Source of the DNA: Halobacteria archaeon HArc-gm2 | GTDB taxonomy: Archaea; Halobacteriota; Halobacteria; Halobacteriales; Haloarculaceae | DNA length: 46,741 nucleotides | Assembly (NCBI GenBank): GCA_025517465.1 | Contig: JAOPKE010000013.1 | Location: 1-46,741, forward strand | Direction: 5' to 3' | Part shown: one piece after another, positions 7,707 through 46,289 of the stretch | How the letters are laid out: every line of letters starts with the position of its first letter | How positions within the stretch are numbered: the stretch's first letter is position 1 | Made by a program: the position numbers and the translations under genes | The notes under the pieces: generated by a model | Seen by the model: only the letters and a program-made list of their open reading frames with translations | Database searches by the model: none | Told to the model about the DNA's origin: nothing

Positions 7707-9251
7707 ATGCGCAGACGAGCCCTCCTGGCAGCAGCGGGCGCGTCCCTGGGCGCGGGCTGTACGGCCCTCGTCCCGGGCGACGCCGAACAGTCGACCGTGA
7801 CTGGGACCGACGATCCGGGGAACGATACCGCGACCGACGAGCCGACGACGACGCCCGACGACGAGCGCGACGTCCCACCGACCGACGCGCGGCAGGTGGT
7901 CGAACTCGAAACCGGGCCGCGGACCCTCGCGGTCGTCGGCACCGGTCGCGACGGCGGCCCGGTCGTTCACCACGGCCCCGACGACGGTGGCCTCCGGGTC
8001 GGCTTCGTCGAGGCAGCGACGGCCGACGGACCGGCGGTGCTCGAGGCGACGCTGCTGAACACCGCCGACTGGGAGAACACGTTCCGGCTGCGGGAGTTCC
8101 CGCCCTTCGGCGACATTTCGCACACCCGGTTGCGCCGCCGGGGGTTCGAGCGGCGCTTCGAGGAACCCGTGCCCGACGACGCGGAGGCCGGCCTCTACCT
8201 CGCGCCGACCGCGAATCACGATCTCGTCGACGACGTGGTCGAGCCGCGCCGGGGTCCGGAGGGGTACTGGCAGACGCCGGACGTCCCGCCGGAACTCCCG
8301 ACGACGGTGACGCTCGACCCGGGTGAGTACGTCACCGGCGAGTACTACGTGCTCGGTCACTGGGACAGGGCCGGATTCCCGACGGGCACCTACGCCTTCG
8401 GCGGGCGCGAATCGGGGCTGGTCCTGTCGGCGTGGGACGCGACGGCGTCGGGCCCGACGGGAGAGGCCCAGGTTTCGGCGTCGCTCCCCTCGCTATACGA
8501 CGACGACACCGCCTGGTTCCACGAGGCCGACGCCTCGACACGAGTGTACCTGGAACCGACTCGCGAGCGAGTCACGGCGCCGGGCCGGCTCTCTCTCCGC
8601 CTGGTGAACCGGACGCACCACTCCATCGGCGGGAACCCCTACGAGTGGGGGCTGTACAAGCTCGCCGAGGGGTCCTGGCACCGGATCGCGCCCTGGATGA
8701 TGCCCATGCCCGCGAGCAGCGTCTCGCCGGGCGACGCCTACGGCTACACCCTGGCGCTGTTCCACGGCGACGGGTTCGAAGTCGACGACCAGGCCGCGGA
8801 CCTGGCCCGCAGCGTCGGACGCCTCGGCGGCGGTCGCTACGCCGTCGCCGGCGGATTCAGCGAGGACGATCGGCGCCCCCCGGTGGCCGCGTTCGACCTC
8901 GACGCACCGACGGTCCCGCTGTCGGTGGCCGACGCCGCCACGCAGTCCGAGGACGGCGGAGACGTCTTCGTCACGTTCCCGTCCTGGGGCGACGACGATC
9001 ATCCGCCCGACGCCACGCTGACGGTTCGCCCCGTCGAGGACGACGCCGACGAGACGCTGATCCGGGAGGTGATCGCGCGTGACCGCTTCGTCGCGCTGGA
9101 GACGGCGCTGGCGGCCATCGGCGACCGGGAGCGCATCGTCGTCCGCGCCGACGACCACGCCGTCGAGAACGTCACGGGCTACGACTCGACCCGTCGCGTC
9201 TTCGACTTCGAGGGGACGACCTACGCGGCCGAGGCGAACCTCGACCCCTGA
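7707..9251 (+). CDS. Tat-type lipoprotein of unknown function
   Basis: A 514-residue exported protein. ATG 7707 gives a standard export start: MRRRALLAAAGASLGAGC, with twin arginines, a hydrophobic stretch and the lipobox LGAGC with the acceptor Cys at residue 18. Starting at 7671 would bury the signal. A Thr/Asp-rich linker follows (about residues 27-60), then a large beta-rich region. The phrase YEWGLYKL-x-EGSWHRIAPW near residue 310 resembles bacterial immunoglobulin-like modules with W-x-x-I-x-P that occur in surface lipoproteins. No catalytic motif is evident. It would be anchored to the outside of the membrane by lipid. It is followed 98 bases later by a second lipoprotein gene on the same strand. 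Confidence 0.8.
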   Translation: MRRRALLAAAGASLGAGCTALVPGDAEQSTVTGTDDPGNDTATDEPTTTPDDERDVPPTDARQVVELETGPRTLAVVGTGRDGGPVVHHGPDDGGLRVGFVEAATADGPAVLEATLLNTADWENTFRLREFPPFGDISHTRLRRRGFERRFEEPVPDDAEAGLYLAPTANHDLVDDVVEPRRGPEGYWQTPDVPPELPTTVTLDPGEYVTGEYYVLGHWDRAGFPTGTYAFGGRESGLVLSAWDATASGPTGEAQVSASLPSLYDDDTAWFHEADASTRVYLEPTRERVTAPGRLSLRLVNRTHHSIGGNPYEWGLYKLAEGSWHRIAPWMMPMPASSVSPGDAYGYTLALFHGDGFEVDDQAADLARSVGRLGGGRYAVAGGFSEDDRRPPVAAFDLDAPTVPLSVADAATQSEDGGDVFVTFPSWGDDDHPPDATLTVRPVEDDADETLIREVIARDRFVALETALAAIGDRERIVVRADDHAVENVTGYDSTRRVFDFEGTTYAAEANLDP

Positions 9252-9349
9252 CCGTTCCGGCTGTCCCGGCGGTCGGGCTTCCACTGTCCTGTCAGTACAG
9301 GCAGCACAACGGCCACAAGAGATACCCATCCCTCTGCGAACGACAGTGT

Positions 9350-10504
9350 ATGCGAGTTACGACGTTGCGGACGGTGGCGGTCGTCGCCGTCGTCGTCCTC
9401 GCCGGGTGCTCCGGCGTCGTGAGCCAGGGCGACCAGGCGACCCCCGCAACCACGTCGACCGCCGACGCATCGACCGCGAACCAGGGCTACTCGGTCTCAG
9501 TCGTCTCACAGACGAGCGGGTCCGACGACGGCGTCCACTTCTACGTCAGCGACGAGGAGAACGCCATCGACGACTTCGCCCACCTGAACGTGACAATCTC
9601 CCGCGTCGGGTTCCAGCGAGCCGCCGACGGCGACAACGAGAGCGAGGGCGGGTGGGTCGAGCGCGACGTGGACAACCGCTCGGTCGACCTGACCCGGCTC
9701 ACGGGCGCCAACGCGACGCGGCTCACCACCGTCGACGCCCCGAACGGGAGCTACGACACGGTGTTCGCCTACGTCAGCGACGTCAACGGGACGCTGACCG
9801 ACGGTGAGTCGGTCCGGGTCAAACTGCCCAGCGAGAAACTGCAGATCCACAAGCCCTTCACCGTCGGCGACGGCGAGTCGGTCGACTTCGTCTTCGACAT
9901 CGCAGTGCACGAGGCGGGCGGTAGCGGGAAGTACATCCTCAAGCCCGTCGTGGGCCAGTCCGGCACCGACGTCCCGATGGAGTCAGTCGACGAGGACGAC
10001 GACGATGACGAACGGGAGGGCGTCCTCGACGTGGACTTCGTCGAGAACGTCACCCGCGGCGCCAACGCGACGCTCGAAGTGACGCGGAACGGGTCCGCCG
10101 TCGAGAACGCGACGGTGACCGTCGACGACGAACGGGTCGGGACCACCGACGCCGACGGTCGGATCACGGTCACCGTCCCCGACGCCGAGGAGGTCGAGAT
10201 CTCCGTCGAAGCCGACGACGCCGAGACGGAACTCGAACTCGACTTCGAGCGGGAGGCCGACGATGACGACGACAGCGACGAGGAGAGTGCTGAGGGCGAG
10301 GAGAGCGACGGCGACGACGACAGCGACGACGCGGACGAGGAAGAGGATAGCGACGACGAAGCGACGGACGACGGTGACGATGCAGAAGACAGCGACGACG
10401 AAGACACCGAAGCCGAAACGGAAGACGAGGACGGCGAAGGCGGTGACGACGAAGACACCGAAGACGACGACGCAACTGAAACGACCACGGCGACCGACAG
10501 CTAG
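9350..10504 (+). CDS. DUF4382-type lipoprotein with very acidic C-terminal tail
   Basis: A 384-residue secreted lipoprotein. The N-terminus has a hydrophobic signal and the lipobox LAGC at about residues 16-19. A short Thr/Ala linker leads to a DUF4382-like domain (about 45-210) with VHFYVSDEENAIDDF and the terminal FVFDIAVHEAGGSGKYILKP pattern. Residues about 225-300 look like a carboxypeptidase-regulatory-like beta-sandwich (NATVTVDDERVGTTDADG). From about residue 302 to the end the chain is almost only Asp, Glu, Ser, Thr and Gly. The function of DUF4382 proteins is not known; they are exported. The tail may be a cation-binding or wall-spanning spacer, which is inference. Confidence 0.85.
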   Translation: MRVTTLRTVAVVAVVVLAGCSGVVSQGDQATPATTSTADASTANQGYSVSVVSQTSGSDDGVHFYVSDEENAIDDFAHLNVTISRVGFQRAADGDNESEGGWVERDVDNRSVDLTRLTGANATRLTTVDAPNGSYDTVFAYVSDVNGTLTDGESVRVKLPSEKLQIHKPFTVGDGESVDFVFDIAVHEAGGSGKYILKPVVGQSGTDVPMESVDEDDDDDEREGVLDVDFVENVTRGANATLEVTRNGSAVENATVTVDDERVGTTDADGRITVTVPDAEEVEISVEADDAETELELDFEREADDDDDSDEESAEGEESDGDDDSDDADEEEDSDDEATDDGDDAEDSDDEDTEAETEDEDGEGGDDEDTEDDDATETTTATDS

Positions 10505-10547
10505 CGGTCCCTCTCCAGGCTGACGCCCTCCGTTCCTGTCAGCGACG

Positions 10548-10554
10548 TTTTAAC
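10548..10554 (+). promoter_or_regulatory. TATA-like element of the antiporter gene
   Basis: TTTTAAC lies about 33 bases before the antiporter start codon, directly after the end of the lipoprotein gene, so the antiporter probably has its own promoter. Confidence 0.4.
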
Positions 10555-10583
10555 TTCCCAGTCCTCGTAGATTCACGCACGGA

Positions 10584-11825
10584 ATGAGCCGGTTGGACGT
10601 CGGGCTGGCGCTCATCGGCGGGCTGGTACTGGTTCTGAGTCTCGGGACGGGGCTGATCCGGAGTCGGGGGTTCGTCCCGTCGGAACAGATGGTAGCGGTC
10701 GGCTTCGGCGTCCTGATCGGTCCGACCGGGCTCGGACTGCTCGCGCTGACGCCGCTGGGCGACCCGCTGGTCGTCCTGGAACAGGTCGCCCGGCTGACGG
10801 TCGCCATCGCCGTCACCAGCATCGCGCTGCGCCTGTCCCCGGACTACTACCGGCGACACGCGCGGACGCTCGCGGTCGTCCTGGGGCCGGTGATGGTGTT
10901 CATGTGGCTCGCCAGCGCCGCGGTCGCGTGGCTCGCGCTCCCGGAGTCGGTCTGGCTGGCGCTGCTGGTCGGTGCCGTCGTCACGCCCACCGACCCAGTC
11001 CTGGCCAACGCCATCGTCGTCGGCCGGACGGCCCACGAGAACATCCCGACGCGACTCCGCCACCTCCTCTCGGCCGAGGCGGGGATCAACGACGGCGCGG
11101 CGTACCCGTTCGTCTTCCTCCCGATATTCGTCCTGCAACACTCGCCCGACGCGGCCCTCGTCGAGTGGGTGTCGCGGACCTTGCTGTGGGAGGTGGGCGG
11201 CGCAGTGACCATCGGCTTCGCCGTCGGTGCGCTGGCCGGGCGGGCCGAACGGCTCGCGCATTCGCGGCAGTTCGCCGATGAGACGTCGGTGTTCACCGTC
11301 GCCGTCGCACTGACCTTCGCCGTCCTCGGGTTCGCCACGCTACTGGGCAGCGACGGAATCCTCGCGGTCTTCGTCGCCGGTGCCGCGTACAACTGGCAGG
11401 CCGACCCCAGCGACGAGGTCGAGGCCCAGCGGATCGAGGAGGTGTTCGACCGCCTGTTCACGTTCCCCGTCTTCGTCTTCTTCGGGATGGCGATCCCGTG
11501 GGCCGGCTGGACCGGGCTCGGGTGGGCGGGCGTCGCCCTCGTCGTCGGCGTCCTGCTGGTCCGGCGGCTGCCTGCCTTCTGGGCGCTGCGGTCCGCGATC
11601 GGCCCCTTCGACCGACCTGAGGCCGCGCTGTTCGTCGGCTGGTTCGGTCCCATCGGCGTGGCTGCCATCTTCTACGCGACCCTGGCCGTGCGCGAGACGG
11701 GGATCGATCTGGCCTGGACCGCCGGGAGCCTCGTCGTCGCGGGGTCGCTGCTGGCCCACGGGATGACGGCGACGCCGCTGACCTACTGGTACGGCCGCCA
11801 GGAGGACGTGAACGGGTCGACGTAG
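10584..11825 (+). CDS. Cation/proton antiporter (CPA1 family)
   Basis: A 413-residue integral membrane protein with about twelve hydrophobic segments. It is a monovalent cation/proton antiporter, exchanging Na+ (or K+) for H+ across the cell membrane. The family motifs seen are TPTDPVLA near residue 137, where the Asp belongs to the ion-binding site, and SAEAGINDGAAYPF near 169-182, in which the Asn-Asp pair is conserved. GWFGPIGVAAIFYA near 352 is the conserved C-terminal helix. There is no cytosolic regulatory domain, so it is a short form. It ends three bases before a weak GTG reading of the next gene, with mutL following on the same strand. Which cation is carried cannot be told. Role in sodium and pH homeostasis is typical for halophiles. 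Confidence 0.9.
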   Translation: MSRLDVGLALIGGLVLVLSLGTGLIRSRGFVPSEQMVAVGFGVLIGPTGLGLLALTPLGDPLVVLEQVARLTVAIAVTSIALRLSPDYYRRHARTLAVVLGPVMVFMWLASAAVAWLALPESVWLALLVGAVVTPTDPVLANAIVVGRTAHENIPTRLRHLLSAEAGINDGAAYPFVFLPIFVLQHSPDAALVEWVSRTLLWEVGGAVTIGFAVGALAGRAERLAHSRQFADETSVFTVAVALTFAVLGFATLLGSDGILAVFVAGAAYNWQADPSDEVEAQRIEEVFDRLFTFPVFVFFGMAIPWAGWTGLGWAGVALVVGVLLVRRLPAFWALRSAIGPFDRPEAALFVGWFGPIGVAAIFYATLAVRETGIDLAWTAGSLVVAGSLLAHGMTATPLTYWYGRQEDVNGST

Positions 11826-11915
11826 GTGCCGGCTCGTGAGCGCGATGGGACGAGAGACCGCACGCTAAAGTCGCTCGGCCGAATACGCCCTTCCAATGAA
11901 GTCAGGGACGGACCG

Positions 11916-14099
11916 ATGACCGGGGACGTCGACGCCGACGACGACCGCGAGTCGGGTGACGACCACGGACCGGGCGAGGGTTCAATCCGCCAGCTCGACG
12001 CCCAGACGGTCGAGCGCATCGCCGCCGGCGAGGTCGTCGAGCGCCCGGCCTCGGTCGTCAAGGAACTCGTCGAGAACAGCCTCGACGCCGACGCCTCGCG
12101 CGTCTCGGTCGCTGTGGAGGCCGGCGGCACCGAGGGGATCCGCATCACCGACGACGGCGTCGGGATGACTCGCGAAGAGGTCGAGACCGCCGTCGAGAAA
12201 CACACCACCTCGAAGATCAGCGACATCGGGGACCTGGAGGCCGGCGTCGCCACGCTGGGATTCCGCGGCGAGGCGCTCCACGCCATCGGCGCCGTCTCGC
12301 GGGTGACTATCACCACGCGCCCCCGCGGCGGTGACACCGGTACCGAACTCGTGCTGGAGGGCGGCGAGGTGACGAGCGTCGGCCCCGCGGGCTGTCCGGA
12401 GGGGACGACCATCGAGGTGGCGGACCTGTTCTACAACGTCCCCGCCCGGCGGAAGTACCTCAAGCAGGCCAGCACGGAGTTCGCCCACGTCAACACCGTC
12501 GTGACGAGCTACGCGCTGGCCAACCCGGACGTCGCCGTCTCGCTGGACCACGACGGCCGCGAGACGTTCGCGACGACGGGCCAGGGCGACCTGCAGGAGA
12601 CCGTGATGTCCGTCTATGGACGGGAGGTGGCCCGGTCCATGATCGCCGTGGAGAGCGACGATTCGGACCTCCCCGAGGGGCCCCTCGACGGCGTGTCGGG
12701 CCTGGTCAGCCACCCCGAGACGAACCGCGCCGGCCGCGAGTACCTCTCGACGTACGTCAACGGCCGCTACGTCCGGGCGAACGCGGTCCGCGAGGCCGTC
12801 GTCGACGCCTACGGCACCCAGCTTGCCCCCGACCGGTACCCCTTCGCCGTCCTCTTCCTCGACGTCGACGCCGGCACCATCGACGTCAACGTCCACCCAC
12901 GCAAGATGGAGATCCGATTCGCCGACGAGGAGGGAATGCGGACCCAGGTCGAGAGCGCCGTCGAGGGAGCGTTGCTCCGCGAAGGACTGATCCGCAGCGG
13001 CGCACCCCGAGGCCGGTCGGCGCCGGACCAGGCCGAGATAGCGCCCGGGCGGAGTGAGGACGGGAGCGAGGTGGACGCAGACGGGGACCGCGGCGCAGGC
13101 GATAGCCGGGGCTCCTCGGAGACGCCGTCACGCCGACTCTCCATCGACTCCGCCGACGTCAAGGAAGGCCAGAATGCGGGCGTGTCCGAACGAGAGCGTG
13201 CGTCCCGACCCGCCGGCGACGACGCCTCACAGCCGCCGACAGCGGATGCCGACGGCGGGACCGACGCGTCCGGTCCGTCTCCGGCAACCGGCCCGGAGCC
13301 GTCGACCCCGTCGAACGGCGGGTCCGGGACCCCGTCCAGCGACACCGACCAATCCGCCGACACTGACCAGTCAAGCGACGCCGGCCGGTCGAGCGACCCC
13401 GTCCGACCCAGTGACCCGTCCCGCAAGTTCAGCGGCGGGCGCCAGCAGCGCCGCCTCGGCGGCGAGGAACCCACGGAGTCGTTCGACACGCTCCCGTCGA
13501 TGCGCATCCTGGGCCAGCTCCACGAAACGTACGTCGTCGCCGAGACGGACGACGGCCTCGTCCTCGTCGACCAGCACGCCGCCGACGAGCGGATCAACTA
13601 CGAGCGCCTGCAGGCGGCGTTCCGCGGCGAGACGACGACCCAGGCGCTGGCCGAACCCGTCGAACTGGAGCTGACAGCCAGGGAGGCAGAACTGTTCACC
13701 GACCGCGGCGAGGCCCTCTCGCGACTGGGGTTCCACGCCAACCGGGTCGACGACCGCACCGTCGAGGTGACGACGGTGCCCGGCGTCGTCGCCGACGGCG
13801 CCGGCCCGGAACTCGTCCGGGACGCCCTCGCCGCGTTCGTCTCGGGCGAGGGCGCGGCCGCCGGGACGGTCGAGGCCGCCGCCGACGAATTGTTGGGTGA
13901 TTTGGCCTGTTACCCATCGATCACCGGCAACACCTCGCTGACGGAGGGGTCGATCCGCGAGTTGCTGGCCGCGCTGGACGAGTGTGAGAATCCCTACGCC
14001 TGTCCGCACGGGCGGCCGGTGGTTATTGAGCTCGACCGTGGGGAGCTTGAGGACCGATTCGAGCGTGACTATCCCGGCCACGCCGGTCGACGGGAGTGA
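11916..14099 (+). CDS. mutL: DNA mismatch repair protein MutL
   Basis: A 727-residue MutL, which links mismatch recognition by MutS to strand incision. The GHKL ATPase region (residues about 20-340) has ELVENSLDAD, DDGVGM and TLGFRGEALHAIG. The C-terminal dimerisation domain carries DQHAADERINYE, matching the endonuclease metal motif DQHA-x2-E-x4-E, plus ACYPSITGN and CPHGRP, so it is a nicking-type MutL. A Ser/Asp/Pro-rich linker (about 365-530) is longer than in bacterial forms. ATG 11916 is preferred; a GTG at 11826 only adds a basic segment lacking family similarity. No mutS is in this window, although the two genes are often neighbours in Halobacteria. It is downstream of the antiporter and followed by a T-run. 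Confidence 0.93.
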   Translation: MTGDVDADDDRESGDDHGPGEGSIRQLDAQTVERIAAGEVVERPASVVKELVENSLDADASRVSVAVEAGGTEGIRITDDGVGMTREEVETAVEKHTTSKISDIGDLEAGVATLGFRGEALHAIGAVSRVTITTRPRGGDTGTELVLEGGEVTSVGPAGCPEGTTIEVADLFYNVPARRKYLKQASTEFAHVNTVVTSYALANPDVAVSLDHDGRETFATTGQGDLQETVMSVYGREVARSMIAVESDDSDLPEGPLDGVSGLVSHPETNRAGREYLSTYVNGRYVRANAVREAVVDAYGTQLAPDRYPFAVLFLDVDAGTIDVNVHPRKMEIRFADEEGMRTQVESAVEGALLREGLIRSGAPRGRSAPDQAEIAPGRSEDGSEVDADGDRGAGDSRGSSETPSRRLSIDSADVKEGQNAGVSERERASRPAGDDASQPPTADADGGTDASGPSPATGPEPSTPSNGGSGTPSSDTDQSADTDQSSDAGRSSDPVRPSDPSRKFSGGRQQRRLGGEEPTESFDTLPSMRILGQLHETYVVAETDDGLVLVDQHAADERINYERLQAAFRGETTTQALAEPVELELTAREAELFTDRGEALSRLGFHANRVDDRTVEVTTVPGVVADGAGPELVRDALAAFVSGEGAAAGTVEAAADELLGDLACYPSITGNTSLTEGSIRELLAALDECENPYACPHGRPVVIELDRGELEDRFERDYPGHAGRRE

Positions 14100-14857: not shown

Positions 14858-15811
14858 ATGACACGTCTCGTTACCTTCGGTGAGACAGCCATCCGCATCA
14901 CGCCGCCGGGGCGCGAGCGCCTCGAAACCGCCACGGACGTCCGCCTGCGGGCGGACGGGACAGAGAGCAACGTCGCCGTCGCGGCGAGTCGGCTGGGAAC
15001 GCCGTCGGTCTGGATCTCGAAGCTGCCGGACACGCCGCTGGGCAAGCGGGTCCTGTCGGAGTTGCACGAACACGGGCTCGACACCGACGTCGTGTGGGCC
15101 GAGGCGGACGCCGGTCGCCAGGGGCTGTCCTTCCACGAGACGGCGCGCAGTCCGCGCGAGGACGTCTCCATCCAGGACCGTGGCGACACCGCCGCGGCGA
15201 CTGTCACGCCGGGTGAACTCCCGATGACGAAGATAACGAGCGCCGACGCGGTGTTTCTCAGTGGGTCGACGATGGCGCTGTCGCCGAACACGGCGGACAC
15301 CGTCGAGGCGATCCTCCGGGCGGCCGGCGGCACGCGCGTCCTCGACCTGGACTTCGACCCCGGACTCTGGTCCGCCGACGTGGCCCGGCGGACGTTCGAG
15401 GGGATGCTCGACGCCGTCGACGTCCTGATCGCCAACGAGGAGGACGCCAAGACCATCTTCGAGCGCTCTGGCAACCCGCGGGAGATCATCCACTCTATCG
15501 CGTCGGAGGGCGGCTTCGACGAGGTGGTCATCACCCGGAGCGAGCGGGGCGCTATCGCGGTCGACGACAACATCCTCCACGAGGTCGACGCCATCGAGAC
15601 GGAACTGGTCGACGCGGCCGGCCAGCACGACGCGTTCGTCGGCGGGTTCCTCCACAGGCACCTCGCCGACGCGTCGACGGAGGACGCGCTGCGCCACGGC
15701 CTCGCCGCCGCGGCTATCACGCGGACCATCCCGGGTTCCATGACGACGATGTCGGCCGGCGAAGTGGAACGGCTGGCGGCGGCGGCCGCTGACGACGGAC
15801 GCGGGCACTGA
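14858..15811 (+). CDS. PfkB-family sugar kinase, KDG-kinase-like
   Basis: A 317-residue carbohydrate kinase of the ribokinase/PfkB family. The opening LVTFGETAIRITPPG and the DGTESNVAVAASRLG segment (about residues 33-47) match the sugar-binding part of 2-keto-3-deoxygluconate kinases, which feed the semi-phosphorylative Entner-Doudoroff pathway. DLDFDPGLW (about 164-172) and LIANEEDAK (about 189-197) are family hallmarks. The usual C-terminal GAGDAF anion-hole motif reads AGQHDAFVGGF near residue 255: the catalytic Asp is kept, but Ala-Gly is replaced by Gln-His. Substrate is therefore uncertain; KDG or another hexose derivative is possible. It stands alone after the repeat element and is followed 99 bases later by a surface protein with its own promoter. 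Confidence 0.82.
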   Translation: MTRLVTFGETAIRITPPGRERLETATDVRLRADGTESNVAVAASRLGTPSVWISKLPDTPLGKRVLSELHEHGLDTDVVWAEADAGRQGLSFHETARSPREDVSIQDRGDTAAATVTPGELPMTKITSADAVFLSGSTMALSPNTADTVEAILRAAGGTRVLDLDFDPGLWSADVARRTFEGMLDAVDVLIANEEDAKTIFERSGNPREIIHSIASEGGFDEVVITRSERGAIAVDDNILHEVDAIETELVDAAGQHDAFVGGFLHRHLADASTEDALRHGLAAAAITRTIPGSMTTMSAGEVERLAAAAADDGRGH

Positions 15812-15910
15812 ACGACCGTGACGCTGAACGACTGGTGGGCGGTGGGAACGGGCCGACCGAAACTCTGATCGGACGGAAACCATTTATCCCAGGACACGTA
15901 CCGGGTAGTT

Positions 15911-17119
15911 ATGATACCGACTCGCGTCCACGCGACGGTCTTTCTCGTGGCCGCACTCTGTCTTTCGGTGGGGGCACCGGCAGTCGTCGCGGGCCAGACC
16001 AACGTAACGCTCACAGTGACGGTCGTCGACCAGGACGGTGACACCGTCAGCGACGTCGACATCTCGGCGACCTGGGACGACGGCGGCCCGGTCAACGAGA
16101 CCACCCGTTCCAACGGCCAGGCCCTCGTCGACGTCCCCGAGGGCGCCAACGTGACCATCTCGGTCCACGACGAGGACTACGTCCGCAACGCGCCGCTCGT
16201 CATCGAGGACGCCGAGACCGGAGAGGTCGACGTCGAGGTTGCCGAGGCCGGCTCGGCGACCGTCGACGTCGTCGACGCACAGGGCTCGGTCGCGAACGCG
16301 AAGGTCCAGCTCTACGACGGCGACGACCGCATCGCCGACGCGCGCACCGGAAGCGACGGCTCGTTCACCACGCGCGACATCGAACAGGGCGACTACGAGG
16401 TCCGCGTCTGGAAGGAGGGCTACCTCCGCAGTGCGACCGACCTGACGGTCGACGGCGACGTCAGCCACGAGGTCGAGATCGAGCAGGATTCGCGACTCCT
16501 CCAGGTCACCGTCAGCGACGACCACTACTCGCCGCCCCAGGCCGTCGCGAACGCGACCGTCAGGGTCGGGGGCCGCAACACGGTGGCGACGCTCTCCAAC
16601 GGCGAAGCGACCGTCCAGGTGCCGGTCAACGCCAACTACGACGTCACCGTCACCAAGGATGGCTACGAGACCAACGAGACGTCGGTCCGGGTCCGCGAGG
16701 AGGCCGAATCGGCGAATCTCACCATCCAGCGCACCGACGCCATCAGCCTCGCCGTCGCCAACGAGCGCGTCGTCCCCGGCGAGTCCACCCGCGTGACCGT
16801 CACCGACGAGTACGGCGACCCCGTCTCCGGCGCCGACGTCAGCATCGAGGGCGAGTCCGCCGGCACGACGAACGACGACGGCGTCACCTCGGTCACCGTC
16901 GAAAGCGCCGGCACGCAGGATCTCACCGCCACCAGCGGCGACCTCGAAGCCACCGCCAACGTCACGGGCGTCCAGGTCGGCGGCGAGTCGACCGACACCG
17001 CCTCGGCGACCGAGAACGCGACTGGCACCGAGACGTCCGACTTCAGCGGCCCCGGCTTCACCGTCGCCGGTGCAATCGTGGCGCTCCTGGCAGCCGGACT
17101 GCTGGCGCGTCGGGACTGA
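15911..17119 (+). CDS. PGF-CTERM surface protein with repeated Ig-like domains
   Basis: A 402-residue secreted surface protein. A Sec signal covers residues 1-27, ending at VVAGQ. The body is a series of carboxypeptidase-regulatory or Ig-like beta-sandwiches: VTVVDQDGDTVSDVDISATW, then ATVDVVDAQGSVANAKVQLY, then a third near 200-260 and a fourth near 290-350 (VTVTDEYGDPVSGADVSIEG). Several N-x-S/T sites suggest N-glycosylation. The end is Thr/Ala/Glu-rich, then SGPGFTVAGAIVALLAAGLL and ARRD: the PGF motif, a hydrophobic helix and Arg residues. This is the sorting signal cut by archaeosortase A, after which the protein is linked to a lipid. TTTAT lies 26 bases before the ATG. A structural or adhesive role is inferred. 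Confidence 0.88.
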   Translation: MIPTRVHATVFLVAALCLSVGAPAVVAGQTNVTLTVTVVDQDGDTVSDVDISATWDDGGPVNETTRSNGQALVDVPEGANVTISVHDEDYVRNAPLVIEDAETGEVDVEVAEAGSATVDVVDAQGSVANAKVQLYDGDDRIADARTGSDGSFTTRDIEQGDYEVRVWKEGYLRSATDLTVDGDVSHEVEIEQDSRLLQVTVSDDHYSPPQAVANATVRVGGRNTVATLSNGEATVQVPVNANYDVTVTKDGYETNETSVRVREEAESANLTIQRTDAISLAVANERVVPGESTRVTVTDEYGDPVSGADVSIEGESAGTTNDDGVTSVTVESAGTQDLTATSGDLEATANVTGVQVGGESTDTASATENATGTETSDFSGPGFTVAGAIVALLAAGLLARRD

Positions 17120-17192
17120 GAAACGGGGGTTTCGGCGGTTAACCCGGTTTTCTTCGGGTCACGTTCCCACAGCGTCCCGCTCGGTTATCGGG

Positions 17193-37265: not shown

Positions 37266-39812
37266 TTACTCGTCCGTGGTCCGCGCAGACGGCGTGAGGC
37301 GGCTGTTGTGCTCCAGTCGGACGTCCACGTACTCGACGTTCGAGGTCGTCGGCGTCAGCTTCTCGTACTGGCCGCCGTCGGTGGCGTCGTGGAGCGCCGG
37401 CCCCTCGAGGTTCGGGCCGCCGGTCTTGAAGCGCGTGGGTGGCGGCGCCACGTCGTTGCCGGTCGCGTCGCGGCCGACGAACACGGTGTCCCTGGTCTCG
37501 GAGCCACCCATCGCGAAGTGACCGATGTTGAAGTCCGCGACGACGCTGTCCGCGAGGATGGAGGTCTGGAACTCCGTCCAGACACCCGAGTGCTCGCACT
37601 TGTAGGCGGTGAAGCCGGTGAGCAGGTCCTCCCGATTCTTGGGGATCTCGTCGGGGTCGATCTCCATCGGTTCGAGTTGCATCATCAGCCCGATCCCCTG
37701 GCAGATGTGCTGGTAGTGCGACATCCGCCACGAGCGAAGGAGGGCGTCCTCGGAGACGTCACCGGTGTAGCCGTCCAGCTGTTTCTGCGGGCGAACCGAG
37801 TAGGAGTGGGCGAGGTTGTCCTCGAAGGTGATCTCGAACTCGCTGGCGTCGAGCCCCACGTCCGATTCGTCGTGGCCGTCGTAGAAGAAGCCCATCGCGC
37901 CGTAGCCACCCGCAGCGTGGTTCCCGACGAGCTCGTTGCTCGGATTGGAGATCCAGAACGCGGCCGGTCGATAGCTGTTCTGTTGCTTCGGTCGCCGGCG
38001 GACGTCGCCCGGATTCTCAAGGTAGCCCCCGAAGGCCCGGTCGGACTCCCTGACGTTCTTCGTGAGGATCGCCAGGTTCTCCCGGAAGACGTTGCCCTCC
38101 TCTTCCGGGAGTCCCTCCTCGACGATGTAGGAGTGGTCGATCGTGTCGAAGACGACGTTGCCTTCGATCAGGACGTTGCCAGTGCCGTGGGCGTTGATCC
38201 CGCGCTGGAAGCTGTGCCAGACGCTGTTGTGCCTGACGTAGGAGCCGTCCTGGTCGTGGCCGTGGTGGAAGTGCAGCGGGTACCTGGCCTGGATGCCGGT
38301 CTGGCCCATGCGGAACGCTTCGAGCCCCTCGATCCGGACCTGGCCGGGGTCGGCGAAGATTCCGTGGCCGCCGAACCCGGGGGCGTACTCCGAGTCGACG
38401 CCCTGGTTCCGGTCGCGATAGCTGAGTTCGTCGCCACGGAGTTCGACGTTGCGAGTGAGCAGGCCGACCTCGGCCCGCATGTCGAGTTCCGTGCCGGCGT
38501 GGGTCTCGACCGCGCCGTAGTGGTCGTGTTCGAGCGGTTCGTCCAGCGTCACCTGGTTCCCGCTGACGGATTCGACCGCTCGCCGTTCGGCCTGCCAGGG
38601 GTCCGACCCGCTGGGGGCGATGGCGATCTGGTCGCCCGCCTCCCAGTCGACCGCGTCGGCGAGCGTGATGGTCTCCGCACCGGCGTCGGCGGAGGCGTCG
38701 AGTTGCGTCCAGTCGGTCTTCTCCCGACTGGCGCCGTGGATCTCGATCGACCCGCCGTCCCAGGTGCCGAGGAACTTCGTCCCGATGGCCATGTCGCCCT
38801 CGCCCCTGACGTTCTCGTGACCGAGGCCCACGAGCGTGATCCGGGCCTCGTGTTCGTACGGGTCGTCCTCCGACCCGATGCGGATCAGCGAGTTCGACCC
38901 CTCGGCGAGCAGCCACGTCGTCGTGAGTTCCAGGTCGACGTCGTCGCCGCCGTCCTCGCCGTCCGCCCCCGCGACGATGGAACAGGCCTCCGTCTGCTCC
39001 CAGACGTCGGCCTCGCCGGGTTCGTCGTCCTGCGTGTACCACTGGGCCTCCCAGTTCGCGCCGTCGTGGGAGACGACGTCTCCGGACGTGTAGGCGGCGT
39101 CGTGGGAGTCGACGGGCTGCCACCGGGGCGCACAGGCGGTCCCCTCTCCGTCGAACCGTCCGGAACTGTCACCGCTCTCTTCGAGCACCAGTTGGTTCGT
39201 GCCGTCACTCCCGTCGCCGTCGGCGGTGCCCTCACACGGGCCGAGTTCCTCCCAGGGACCCCACTCACGGGCACCCGGTTCGTCGCCTTCGGTCCACCAC
39301 TGGGCCTCCCAGCGCGTCCCGTCGTAGGTGGCCCTGTCGCCCTGCCTGTAGACCGTTCCCGAGTCCCAGGGGGCCGGGCACGACGCCGCGTCGCTGGAAT
39401 CGTCGCTTCCGCTGGTATCGGTACCGTCGTTGTCGCTGCCGCTGCCGGTACTGCCGTCACTGCCGTCGTCACTGTCGCTGCTGCCGCCACTCCCGCTGTT
39501 GTCGCCGCTGACGATCGAGTCGTCGGCGAACTCGAGGGTGCCGTTGACGAGGACGCCGTCCAGCGGCGGCGGGCTGGTGTCGAGCACGACGTGATCGTCC
39601 TCCTCGATGGTCACCTGGTCCCCTGCTTCGGGGAGCGAGCCGTCCCAGGTCGCCGGGTCCGACCACCTGCTCGGTTCGCTCGCCTCCTGTGCCGATGCCA
39701 CGTTCGTTCCGAGGGCGCCCGCTGCGACGAGGCCACCAGTCGCCTGGAGAAACCGTCGCCGTCCCAGAGCCCCCGTTCGATCCGTCTCGTTCGATTTACG
39801 TTCTTCTGTCAT
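37266..39812 (-). CDS. Tat-exported CEMIP-like protein with split G8 domain and two chitin-binding modules
   Basis: An 848-residue exported protein. ATG 39812 gives a Tat signal, RRRFLQATGG at 18-27 ending near SAQ. Residues 50-98 match the first half of a G8 domain (WSDPATWDGSLPEAGDQVTI) and 292-330 the second (LELTTTWLLAEG, RIGSEDDPYE). Between them lie a Ser/Asp/Gly linker (101-142) and two ChtBD3/CBM5-12 modules (145-193, 227-277), each with YRQGD or YTSGD, WEAQW and an end Cys pair. After G8, GGSIEIHG, DWEAGDQIAIAP, the RYPLHFHHG segment and a right-handed beta-helix follow, as in the CEMIP/TMEM2 and PKHD1-like families. Animal CEMIP acts on hyaluronan. Here a polysaccharide-binding or -cleaving surface role is inferred. 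Confidence 0.85.
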   Translation of the reverse strand: MTEERKSNETDRTGALGRRRFLQATGGLVAAGALGTNVASAQEASEPSRWSDPATWDGSLPEAGDQVTIEEDDHVVLDTSPPPLDGVLVNGTLEFADDSIVSGDNSGSGGSSDSDDGSDGSTGSGSDNDGTDTSGSDDSSDAASCPAPWDSGTVYRQGDRATYDGTRWEAQWWTEGDEPGAREWGPWEELGPCEGTADGDGSDGTNQLVLEESGDSSGRFDGEGTACAPRWQPVDSHDAAYTSGDVVSHDGANWEAQWYTQDDEPGEADVWEQTEACSIVAGADGEDGGDDVDLELTTTWLLAEGSNSLIRIGSEDDPYEHEARITLVGLGHENVRGEGDMAIGTKFLGTWDGGSIEIHGASREKTDWTQLDASADAGAETITLADAVDWEAGDQIAIAPSGSDPWQAERRAVESVSGNQVTLDEPLEHDHYGAVETHAGTELDMRAEVGLLTRNVELRGDELSYRDRNQGVDSEYAPGFGGHGIFADPGQVRIEGLEAFRMGQTGIQARYPLHFHHGHDQDGSYVRHNSVWHSFQRGINAHGTGNVLIEGNVVFDTIDHSYIVEEGLPEEEGNVFRENLAILTKNVRESDRAFGGYLENPGDVRRRPKQQNSYRPAAFWISNPSNELVGNHAAGGYGAMGFFYDGHDESDVGLDASEFEITFEDNLAHSYSVRPQKQLDGYTGDVSEDALLRSWRMSHYQHICQGIGLMMQLEPMEIDPDEIPKNREDLLTGFTAYKCEHSGVWTEFQTSILADSVVADFNIGHFAMGGSETRDTVFVGRDATGNDVAPPPTRFKTGGPNLEGPALHDATDGGQYEKLTPTTSNVEYVDVRLEHNSRLTPSARTTDE

Positions 39813-43932: not shown

Positions 43933-44490
43933 ATGGCGCTGGACGTTGCCGGGACGGACCCGGCGACAGGAGCAGAGGCGACGCTCACCGGCTCGGGGTT
44001 CACACGGTCGGATAACTACACGGCTTCGGGCGCTTCGCTGTCGTCGTCGCAATCCCTGAGCGCAGACGGAAACCTGGAACCGCAACACTCAGACGGAGGC
44101 GATCCCGTTTTGGGAGTGACCGCAAACGCCCCAACTGAATCGTACAATCCCGTAACCGACGAGGGCGACGGTACCACAGACCTCTCATTGCCGGCGTTCG
44201 GTGACGACCAATATGATACCGCGTTCATAACTGAGATGAAGGTCGTTCCCAATTACGATGGGAAAATAGAGACGATTACGCTCGATATTGCCGAAGTGGT
44301 CGGCTCGGATTACGGGGCGCTTGTTGACGTTCGTATCGGTCAAGAAAGCCCAGACGACACGTTTGGTGAAGGGACGTCGATCGCAAAATGGGACCCGAGT
44401 TGGTCGGCGGGCACACAGACTATCACCGTGGACGATCCGCCCTCGGTGAGTAAGGGGCAAGCGTACACAATTGAGTTTATCACCGAATAG
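43933..44490 (+). CDS. First part of an interrupted surface or virus-like protein
   Basis: A 185-codon open frame, acidic and Ser/Thr/Asp-rich, with predicted beta-strands (DITEMKVVPNYDGKIETITL, then VGSDYGALVDVRIGQ). It ends at TAG 44488. The reading frame stays open after TAG for 21 codons of the same character (SDGDGTYDSLKVDLDD), meets a TGA at 44554, then runs without break into the next 384-codon frame. The whole 43933-45735 is thus one frame with two stops. It is probably a decayed gene; stop-codon readthrough is less likely. Lower G+C and mixed codon use mark it as foreign. The start is uncertain because the N-terminus overlaps the hicB remnant. No family is recognised. Confidence 0.55.
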   Translation: MALDVAGTDPATGAEATLTGSGFTRSDNYTASGASLSSSQSLSADGNLEPQHSDGGDPVLGVTANAPTESYNPVTDEGDGTTDLSLPAFGDDQYDTAFITEMKVVPNYDGKIETITLDIAEVVGSDYGALVDVRIGQESPDDTFGEGTSIAKWDPSWSAGTQTITVDDPPSVSKGQAYTIEFITE

Positions 44491-44580
44491 AGCGATGGCG
44501 ATGGAACGTATGACTCGCTGAAGGTCGATCTCGATGACAGCGCGTCGTCGGTCTGATATTCCTCCCAAATAGACCGCGAT

Positions 44581-45735
44581 ATGGAGCAGTACCCGGATGT
44601 TGAAATCGGGAGCAACGCGGAGGTAAACGGCCTCTCCGTGGCAGATAATAACGGCAATTCTGTTTCGTTCGGTGACATGGCAGACGGGGAAACAGCCACG
44701 AAACGTCTAGATGTGAAAACGTCCTCGTCGTCGTTAGAGTGGTCTGGGTCCGGTGGCGGGTCGATAGATTACTCTCTGAAGATGCAGGAGCGTTCGGGGA
44801 GTGAAGATCTGTCAATAGACGTGGATGGCGACGGAACGGCGGACGTAAGCTATACGGCCGTCCTCGTGGACGGCGAGACGACGAGCGCACAGGTGGGTGA
44901 GCTGGCTGTCGGGAGTGGTCCGGCCCAGGTGTCACTGACGAGCGGGACCGTGGACGCGGAGGTAACGTATACGGAGCACACTGTCACGCGGGACCCAGTG
45001 GTATACGTCAACGGAAACAAAATCGAGTATACGGGCGAACTCTCGCCAGAACAGACAGCCTCGCTCTCCACAGATACGGGCTGGATCCAGGACGGATCGA
45101 ATAACGTCACGGTCCGGGTGGGAGACGGGACGCTCTCGAGCGACGCCCCAGATCCGTCCGTGGACCTGAATTATTCTCACTCCGCGGAGGAGCAGATCGA
45201 CACACAATATATCTCCACGGGCTGGGAGGAGTCATACAACGTCTCCCACACGTTCCGAGGGGACCAGCAGAACGCGGAGCTCCGGATCCCATTCAGCCAG
45301 GAGGTCTATAACCTCGAGTACGTCGAACAGTCGGTCAACGGCGGGAGCTGGGTGTCCGTTCCTAGCCAGGACTGGGAGCTTCAGAACGGGACGCGGCTCG
45401 TCGTCCAGCTGGACGACGGCGACGCCACCGCTGGCGTGGAGGCCGGCGACACGATCGCCATTCGAACAGCGGGCTACAAGGTACAGGCTGTCAACGGGGA
45501 GATCACCGTCGTAGACCCGACTACGCCGGAGGACGACGGACTGGACACGGGTTTCCGCGTGGACTTCAAAAGCGCCGGGTTCCACCTGGAGATCGGCGGG
45601 ACACGGCTGGGGAACCAGGTCCACTACACGCACACGGAGAGCTGGGAGAATCCGGACGAGAGCGTGGTTGTGAACGCGGACGGCCAGCAGGACCTCTATC
45701 TTCCGAACCCCAGACAGGTGGCGACGTCCGCGTGA
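44581..45735 (+). CDS. Second part of the interrupted surface or virus-like protein
   Basis: A 384-codon frame, acidic, rich in Ser, Thr and Gly, made of beta-strand-like segments (VTVRVGDGTLSSDAPDPSVD, SYNVSHTFRGDQQNAELRIP, YNLEYVEQSVNGGSWVSVPS). It has no signal peptide in the portion from ATG 44581, as expected if the true N-terminus is the preceding piece. It is in the same frame as the 43933 frame, with only TAG and TGA between. The following gene overlaps its stop by four bases (GTGA), so it was part of an operon. Such beta-rich proteins are typical of archaeal virus spikes, tail fibres or surface adhesins, but no database relative is recognised. Confidence that it was coding is high; that it is functional is low. 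Confidence 0.65.
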   Translation: MEQYPDVEIGSNAEVNGLSVADNNGNSVSFGDMADGETATKRLDVKTSSSSLEWSGSGGGSIDYSLKMQERSGSEDLSIDVDGDGTADVSYTAVLVDGETTSAQVGELAVGSGPAQVSLTSGTVDAEVTYTEHTVTRDPVVYVNGNKIEYTGELSPEQTASLSTDTGWIQDGSNNVTVRVGDGTLSSDAPDPSVDLNYSHSAEEQIDTQYISTGWEESYNVSHTFRGDQQNAELRIPFSQEVYNLEYVEQSVNGGSWVSVPSQDWELQNGTRLVVQLDDGDATAGVEAGDTIAIRTAGYKVQAVNGEITVVDPTTPEDDGLDTGFRVDFKSAGFHLEIGGTRLGNQVHYTHTESWENPDESVVVNADGQQDLYLPNPRQVATSA

Positions 45736-46289
45736 CGACGATCCCGCTCGAGGTCAGTCCCACGAGCGGCGACGTGGGGATCCAGGTCGCTGACCCGGAC
45801 CAACCCACGATCGACGTGACGCCCGGCAAAGTCGGGAGCGGCTCCGAGGTGGCGTTCACTTGGTATAGCGTCGTCTCCGGGGAGAAATACAGCCTGTACT
45901 CGCTCCCTCGAGAGCGGTACATGGACAAGCAGGACGCGGGGAGCTCGTCCGTGACGCTTCTGGACGACGATAGCGAGGGGTCGCTTGTGATCCGCCAGGT
46001 GGACGGCTCCACAGACGGCGAGAGCACGGGCGGCGGCGAGTTCTCCGGCGGCAACTGGGAGGATCCGACGGAGGGGATCCAGTGGCAAAAAATCGCTGTC
46101 GTGATTGTCTGGGCAGCGCTCTCTATAGGGCTCGTCGCGGCAACGGGCCGCTCCGAGATTCAAGGCCGTCGGCGCTGGGGTCTCATTGCCAGTATCCCCA
46201 CAGGGACTGGGATCCTGGCGCTTGAGCTGCTCCGGCCAGGTGTGATCGTCGGCGCAGTCACTTCCTTGTTGCATATTGAGTTGCGGTAA
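45732..46289 (+). CDS. Membrane-anchored beta-domain protein of the element
   Basis: A 185-residue protein starting at GTG 45732, overlapping the previous stop by four bases. Residues 1-115 form a soluble beta-rich part (VADPDQPTIDVTPGKVGSGS, then VAFTWYSVVSGEKYSLYSLP), then a Gly/Ser/Glu linker (STGGGEFSGGNWEDPTEG). Residues about 120-137 (IAVVIVWAALSIGLVAAT) and 152-183 are membrane helices. So it would face outward and be anchored at its C-terminal end. It is the intact-looking partner of the interrupted gene and keeps the same foreign codon use. I do not recognise a family; a viral or plasmid membrane protein is a plausible reading. Confidence 0.7.
   Translation: MTTIPLEVSPTSGDVGIQVADPDQPTIDVTPGKVGSGSEVAFTWYSVVSGEKYSLYSLPRERYMDKQDAGSSSVTLLDDDSEGSLVIRQVDGSTDGESTGGGEFSGGNWEDPTEGIQWQKIAVVIVWAALSIGLVAATGRSEIQGRRRWGLIASIPTGTGILALELLRPGVIVGAVTSLLHIELR

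Follow-up and report, generated by a model that had tools for sequence, protein, structure and literature searches.

The window, the whole 46,741-nucleotide stretch of DNA that was analyzed, encodes a protein in which two carbohydrate-binding modules of family 5/12 (CBM5/12) interrupt a single G8 domain. This is a real, well-bounded domain-in-domain insertion in a protein of a known type; the members of a small clade have it in common, and there is one convergent example of an interruption at this turn of the fold. The features of the protein, all on the minus strand, are as follows:

37266..39812, minus strand: coding sequence, 848 residues; Tat-type signal, split G8 with two CBM5/12 modules, CEMIP-type beta-helix
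39678..39812, minus strand: Tat-type signal region, residues 1-45, with the RRRFLQ motif at 18-23
39519..39665, minus strand: N-terminal part of G8, residues 50-98 (positions 1-49 of our own G8 profile; model pLDDT mostly about 95)
38934..39518, minus strand: 195-residue insertion in one G8 turn, residues 99-293, missing in uninterrupted homologues
39384..39518, minus strand: Ser/Asp/Gly linker 1, residues 99-143 (read from the sequence; pLDDT below 50)
39234..39380, minus strand: CBM5/12 module 1, residues 145-193, AQWWT motif, Cys at both ends (PF02839 at residues 149-187; matches chitinase CBMs in the PDB)
38982..39134, minus strand: CBM5/12 module 2, residues 227-277, AQWYT motif, Cys at both ends (PF02839 at window positions 38997-39101; matches ChiC, 2d49)
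38700..38933, minus strand: C-terminal part of G8, residues 294-371, ending in GGSIEIHG...WTQL (PF10162 profile positions 46-123; pLDDT mostly 85-96, 61-79 around residues 331-350)
37845..38378, minus strand: CEMIP-type beta-helix core, residues 479-656 (PF24606, 2.4e-42)

Elsewhere in the window, positions 43933-46289 form a lower-GC stretch (0.57 at 44-45 kb vs. about 0.67) with three neighboring ORFs of unclear kind, and may be part of a mobile element.

A single G8 domain, interrupted at a strand-strand turn

Pfam searches matched G8 (PF10162) to the window protein in two stretches, with an E-value of 4.1e-22 and 78.8 bits, compared to a gathering score of 22.9; the best stretch, residues 291-371, corresponds to profile positions 46-123. 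CBM_5_12 (PF02839) was also matched in two stretches (E 2.7e-15, 56.5 bits vs. 26.2), and CEMIP_beta-hel (PF24606) at residues 479-656 (145.5 bits vs. 27.3). A G8 profile of our own, built from uninterrupted relatives and with residue numbers shifted by 22 from those of the longer open frame, aligned with residues 50-99 (positions 1-49) and 291-371 (positions 47-131), and the two stretches jointly cover the whole profile. The insert between them (residues 99-293) consists, in order, of a Ser/Asp/Gly linker, the CBM at 145-193, a linker, the CBM at 227-277, and a linker, all linkers being of the flexible, acidic Ser/Asp/Gly type.

An uninterrupted, single G8 was found in haloarchaeal homologues that are 51-52% identical to the window protein, in Natrinema altunense (L045), in Haloarcula amylolytica (L046), and in the second copy of genome G321 (L036). 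In L045, G8 is one match spanning residues 57-180 (profile positions 1-123). In all three proteins, the counterpart of the sequence up to residue 98 (GVLEFKDGG) leads, with at most a few residues between, into the equivalent of residue 294 onward (YRELTSDYVLAEG). Because these three proteins carry an unbroken G8, chance or mis-parsing of the split domain is excluded. The AlphaFold models of the window protein and L045 have equal G8 strands flanking the insert: strands 86-89 and 92-95, then, after the insert, 294-298, 300-304, 309-312, and 323-327 in the former, and 88-91, 94-97, 103-107, 109-113, 117-120, and 131-135 in the latter. The pLDDT of the window model is mostly about 85-96 in the G8 parts, lower around residues 331-350, about 25-84 in the CBMs, and below 50 in the linkers. 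Foldseek returned TMEM2 (8c6i) as the top match for both models (E 2.7e-20 for the window protein and 1.7e-23 for L045), and a sequence search of the PDB gave TMEM2 as the sole G8/CEMIP relative (2.3e-36).

Profile matches and predicted structures together indicate that residues 50-98 and 294-371 are one G8 unit, which forms the first rungs of the beta-helix, and that a turn between two G8 strands can hold an insert of 195 residues; the two halves are predicted to pack against each other. The first-pass annotation had proposed a G8 domain split at such a turn by two CBM5/12 modules, with a CEMIP-type GGSIEIHG segment and beta-helix downstream. Profiles, uninterrupted homologues, and models bear this out, with a G8 profile match above the gathering score and, less directly, model strands that point to one G8 unit; its limits for the first half (50-98) were correct, and the second half is longer than the 292-330 it had given. 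The view that the two stretches are unrelated, as separate domains or a fusion artefact, draws on the annotation of G8 as two stretches, and is extremely improbable given homologues in which the halves adjoin, strands that match in two independent models, and the same join in five genomes. A frameshift or assembly error was also considered and rejected, as the frame is open throughout, five genomes have the same join, the modules are under purifying selection (see below), and third codon positions are GC-rich right across the insert.

For the Tat export that had been proposed, a conserved Tat-type motif was found: R18, R19, F21, and Q23 of the RRRFLQ motif are invariant in an alignment of seven haloarchaeal homologues, and yet the TAT models of Pfam and NCBIfam fall below cut-off on the window protein.

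Distribution and evolution of the insertion

As the first-pass annotation had envisaged, the same insertion occurs in other Halobacteria. In addition to the window genome (G000), it was found in four further genomes: a congener (G138); two members of the genus of Halosimplex carlsbadense (G275 and G715, the latter identified as H. carlsbadense 2-9-1, L044, by matching coordinates); and G321, from the same genus as Natrinema altunense, which has both an insertion copy and an uninterrupted copy. The five carriers span two haloarchaeal families, and four of them are Haloarculaceae. A close relative is present in 5 of 146 family genomes, and is uninterrupted in one of the five. In the tree, the carriers group together (99/99), with the uninterrupted haloarchaeal clade as their sister; the two are joined with support of 100/99, and Bacteroidota proteins are nearest to them (84/94). 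The core of the window protein is 83-84% identical to that of carriers from other genera, of which one belongs to a different family. This high identity and the rarity of the trait suggest that the insertion gene moved between haloarchaeal families.

The dN/dS of the CBM modules is 0.10-0.28 in three closer pairs and 0.44-0.50 against G321, and that of the linkers is mostly above that of the modules; by this measure, purifying selection acts on the modules. The two modules of the G321 insertion copy are almost identical to one another, which is a sign of recent duplication or conversion. The neighbors of the window gene are conserved only within the genus, and operon context was therefore set aside as uninformative about function. 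No paper joining archaea with G8/CEMIP proteins was found in the literature collection searched.

Related proteins and other modules at the same turn

The uninterrupted haloarchaeal proteins (L045, L046, and G321:C1) share the Tat-type start, G8, and helix with the window protein, and differ from it in lacking the insertion, in their C-terminal tails, and in residing in genomes with GH18 chitinases. A Pirellulales protein (L056, CAMYJY010000079.1, positions 9065-12064) resembles the window protein in that its G8 is split at profile positions 46-49, but the split is made by Laminin_G_3 (LamG) domains (8.8e-16) instead of CBM5/12 modules. Since this protein is placed far from the haloarchaeal clade in the tree, its LamG insertion looks independent of the CBM5/12 insertion. 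A LamG-in-G8 arrangement was seen in this protein only, among the G8 proteins of 24 of 294 sampled genomes of its phylum, with limited flanks. With the lectin-like domain of TMEM2 at a later turn (see below) counted in, glycan-binding-type modules appear to have entered the N-terminal helix rungs at least three times, at two places.

Two further CEMIP-type proteins, from an Opitutae MAG (L053:9899-12901) and a Rhodobacteraceae MAG (L050:3063-6800), look circularly permuted, with the end of G8 (profile about 92-131) N-terminal and its first part (1-97) near the C-terminus; the former starts with a plausible signal peptide. The window genome also encodes a second, distant G8-CEMIP protein (C12, L039:7930-11007), a 1026-codon open frame without the CBM insertion, relatives of which are present in other Halobacteria.

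The polymer probably bound by the inserted modules

CBM5/12 modules are known mainly from chitinases, and are best known as chitin-binding. Both modules of the window protein find their best PDB matches in chitinase CBMs, and both keep an aromatic pair (WW in AQWWT and WY in AQWYT, compared with AKWWT in ChiC). In ChiC, the two binding Trp residues occupy the position of this pair (PMC5328894). The window protein shares its CBM5/12 type, carried on linkers, with GH18 and GH19 chitinases. In the GH18 chitinases scanned (L046), however, the CBMs lie ahead of the catalytic domain in the chain, and not within a domain, and the catalytic domain is unrelated.

Chitin, the substrate considered first, was given less weight on the absence of GH18, GH20, and further CBM5/12 in carriers. 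No GH18 was found in G000, G138, G275, or G715, all about 99% complete, in a search in which control genomes gave matches; GH18 is present in G004, G115, and G321. GH20 was found in none of seven genomes, and controls again gave matches; this absence alone says little, as the GH18-bearing genomes also lack GH20. The search for GH19 found none, and no control genome matched either. In the four Haloarculaceae carriers, no CBM5/12 was found outside the window-type protein. Among congeners of the window genome, the CBM5/12 proteins scanned were subtilases, not chitinases. These are Tat-type proteases (Peptidase_S8) with tandem CBM5/12 modules, in two genomes of the genus (L009:1-2001 and L012:301-2259), and the pairing of protease and CBM is unusual.

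Family-5 modules possess a linear row of aromatic residues and resemble cellulose-binding domains, one prototype being the cellulose-binding domain of endoglucanase Z (PMC8449059). Growth on amorphous cellulose was confirmed for H. carlsbadense 2-9-1, one of the carriers, and for Halomicrobium zhouii (PMC10267330). Chitin did not support the growth of relatives of these two species that had been enriched on cellulose (PMC4569967). The window genome, of which about half was read for CAZymes, encodes a secreted xylanase cluster (contig C4; L108:500-11622 and L187:412-9939) with three GH11, two GH10, a GH43-ricin lectin protein, a GH3, and a beta-helix-ricin-lectin protein. No plant-wall breakdown gene is adjacent to the window gene. 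The lack of GH18, GH20, and other CBM5/12, the growth on cellulose, the xylan set, and the family-5 aromatic row favor, with moderate confidence, cellulose or plant-wall material over chitin as the polymer.

An enzyme directed at chitin, with CBMs that bind chitin and a helix that cleaves chitin or a chitin-associated polymer, is accordingly a minority reading, unlikely but with some evidence in its favor. Besides the chitinase-like best matches of the modules, it can call on the uninterrupted homologue of Haloarcula amylolytica, which sits between GH18-CBM5/12 chitinases, and on the GH18 genes of G004, G115, and G321. Four of the five insertion carriers, however, lack GH18, GH20, and further CBM5/12, and the failure on chitin of the cellulose-grown relatives, as well as the cellulose-binding resemblance of family-5 modules, point away from it. 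The functional claim of the first-pass annotation, use of a chitin-like or glycosaminoglycan-like polymer, is not supported in that form. The chitinase locus of Haloarcula amylolytica (L046:3828-7588 and 15410-17158) comprises, around the CEMIP-type gene, two GH18-PKD-CBM5/12 chitinases and one CBM5/12-PKD protein, about 400 residues of which are of unknown family.

Proposed role of the protein

The reading that we favor, and to which we give about even chances, is that of a secreted right-handed beta-helix protein of the CEMIP/TMEM2 type, predicted to process polysaccharides, with plug-in CBMs that anchor it to a cellulose-like polymer. The protein would be exported by the Tat pathway in the folded state, and its CBMs would bind an insoluble beta-1,4-glycan, thereby holding the helix against the polymer or something embedded in it. 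The conserved His, Asp, Arg, and Glu residues of the helix would constitute the working site. Less certainly, the polymer in these organisms may be cellulose or plant-cell-wall material, not chitin or hyaluronan. Several observations speak against this reading: the standing of CBM5/12 as chitin-binding, the dispute over TMEM2 catalysis, the GH18-bearing genomes of the close uninterrupted homologues and of the fifth carrier, G321, the lack of a plant-wall gene beside the window gene, and the low pLDDT of the modeled CBMs.

A non-catalytic adhesin or scaffold, with the helix serving as a structural stalk and the CBMs tethering cells or enzymes to fibers, is rather doubtful. Cellulotrophic haloarchaea do begin by adhering tightly to particles of cellulose, and their cellulase activity is cell-associated (PMC4569967); furthermore, one careful study detected no activity of TMEM2 (PMC10206443). 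Against a stalk, the C-terminal sequence of the window protein showed neither a membrane anchor nor a sorting tail, and the helix has polar His, Asp, Arg, and Glu residues that do not vary between bacteria and human, a degree of conservation beyond what a stalk needs.

Comparison with TMEM2 and CEMIP

The homology to human TMEM2 extends over the helix. Twenty-eight residues between 377 and 568 are invariant in the bacterial and archaeal set, and 25 of these are identical in human TMEM2, including H431, D444, R446, E448, R454, H483, H514, H516, H542, H560, and E565. The conservation of polar residues this widely argues for a common working site in CEMIP-type helices. No prokaryotic CEMIP-type protein has, to our knowledge, a measured activity.

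In the TMEM2 structure, G8 belongs to a continuous right-handed helix, and the active site could not be assigned (PMC10206443). Intrinsic hyaluronidase activity of TMEM2 is disputed, as two groups found none (PMC10206443, PMC10276149) and one reports it (PMC10474455). The activity-abolishing substitutions R265C, D273N, and D286N map to the lectin-like domain (PMC10206443).

Human TMEM2 (8C6I) and CEMIP (KIAA1199) are like the window protein in that G8 forms the first rungs of a continuous beta-helix and in that a glycan-binding domain is inserted in the N-terminal helix. The animal proteins have their inserted lectin-like GG domain farther along, at a turn past window residue 374, and another GG domain at the C-terminus, whereas the window protein carries two CBM5/12 modules inside G8 (between residues 98 and 294) and no GG-type domain was found in it. 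TMEM2 is longer by about 167 residues between the equivalents of window residues 374 and 377; the window protein has no counterpart of the lectin-like GG domain there, and Pfam found none. A depolymerase of hyaluronan or a similar glycosaminoglycan, as claimed for animal CEMIP and TMEM2 and as suggested in the first-pass annotation, is consistent with the clear homology to TMEM2 and with the retained family-invariant residues, but is very unlikely: the domain to which the R265C, D273N, and D286N sites belong is missing (PMC10206443), the TMEM2 activity is itself in dispute, hyaluronan is not an obvious substrate in brine, and the CBMs point elsewhere.

Implications

A cellulose-linked role is predicted to be somewhat more likely for the window protein than a role on chitin or glycosaminoglycans. 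A broader and still tentative reading is that the CEMIP-type beta-helix may be an old scaffold for polysaccharide processing, with its target determined by glycan-binding modules that plug into turns of the N-terminal rungs, and that the haloarchaeal form may be a new archaeal enzyme for cellulose or plant-wall material. As part of the same tentative reading, the G8 turn at profile positions 46-49 would be a repeated entry point, used by CBM5/12 in haloarchaea and by LamG in planctomycetes, with a later turn taken by the lectin domain in animals. The reaction of the CEMIP/TMEM2 fold, and even its status as an enzyme, is disputed in humans, and secreted prokaryotic members with modules that hint at the polymer offer a simpler system for finding the activity and the active site. 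The clade with the insert and its insert-free sister clade form a ready pair for testing the role of a plug-in module.
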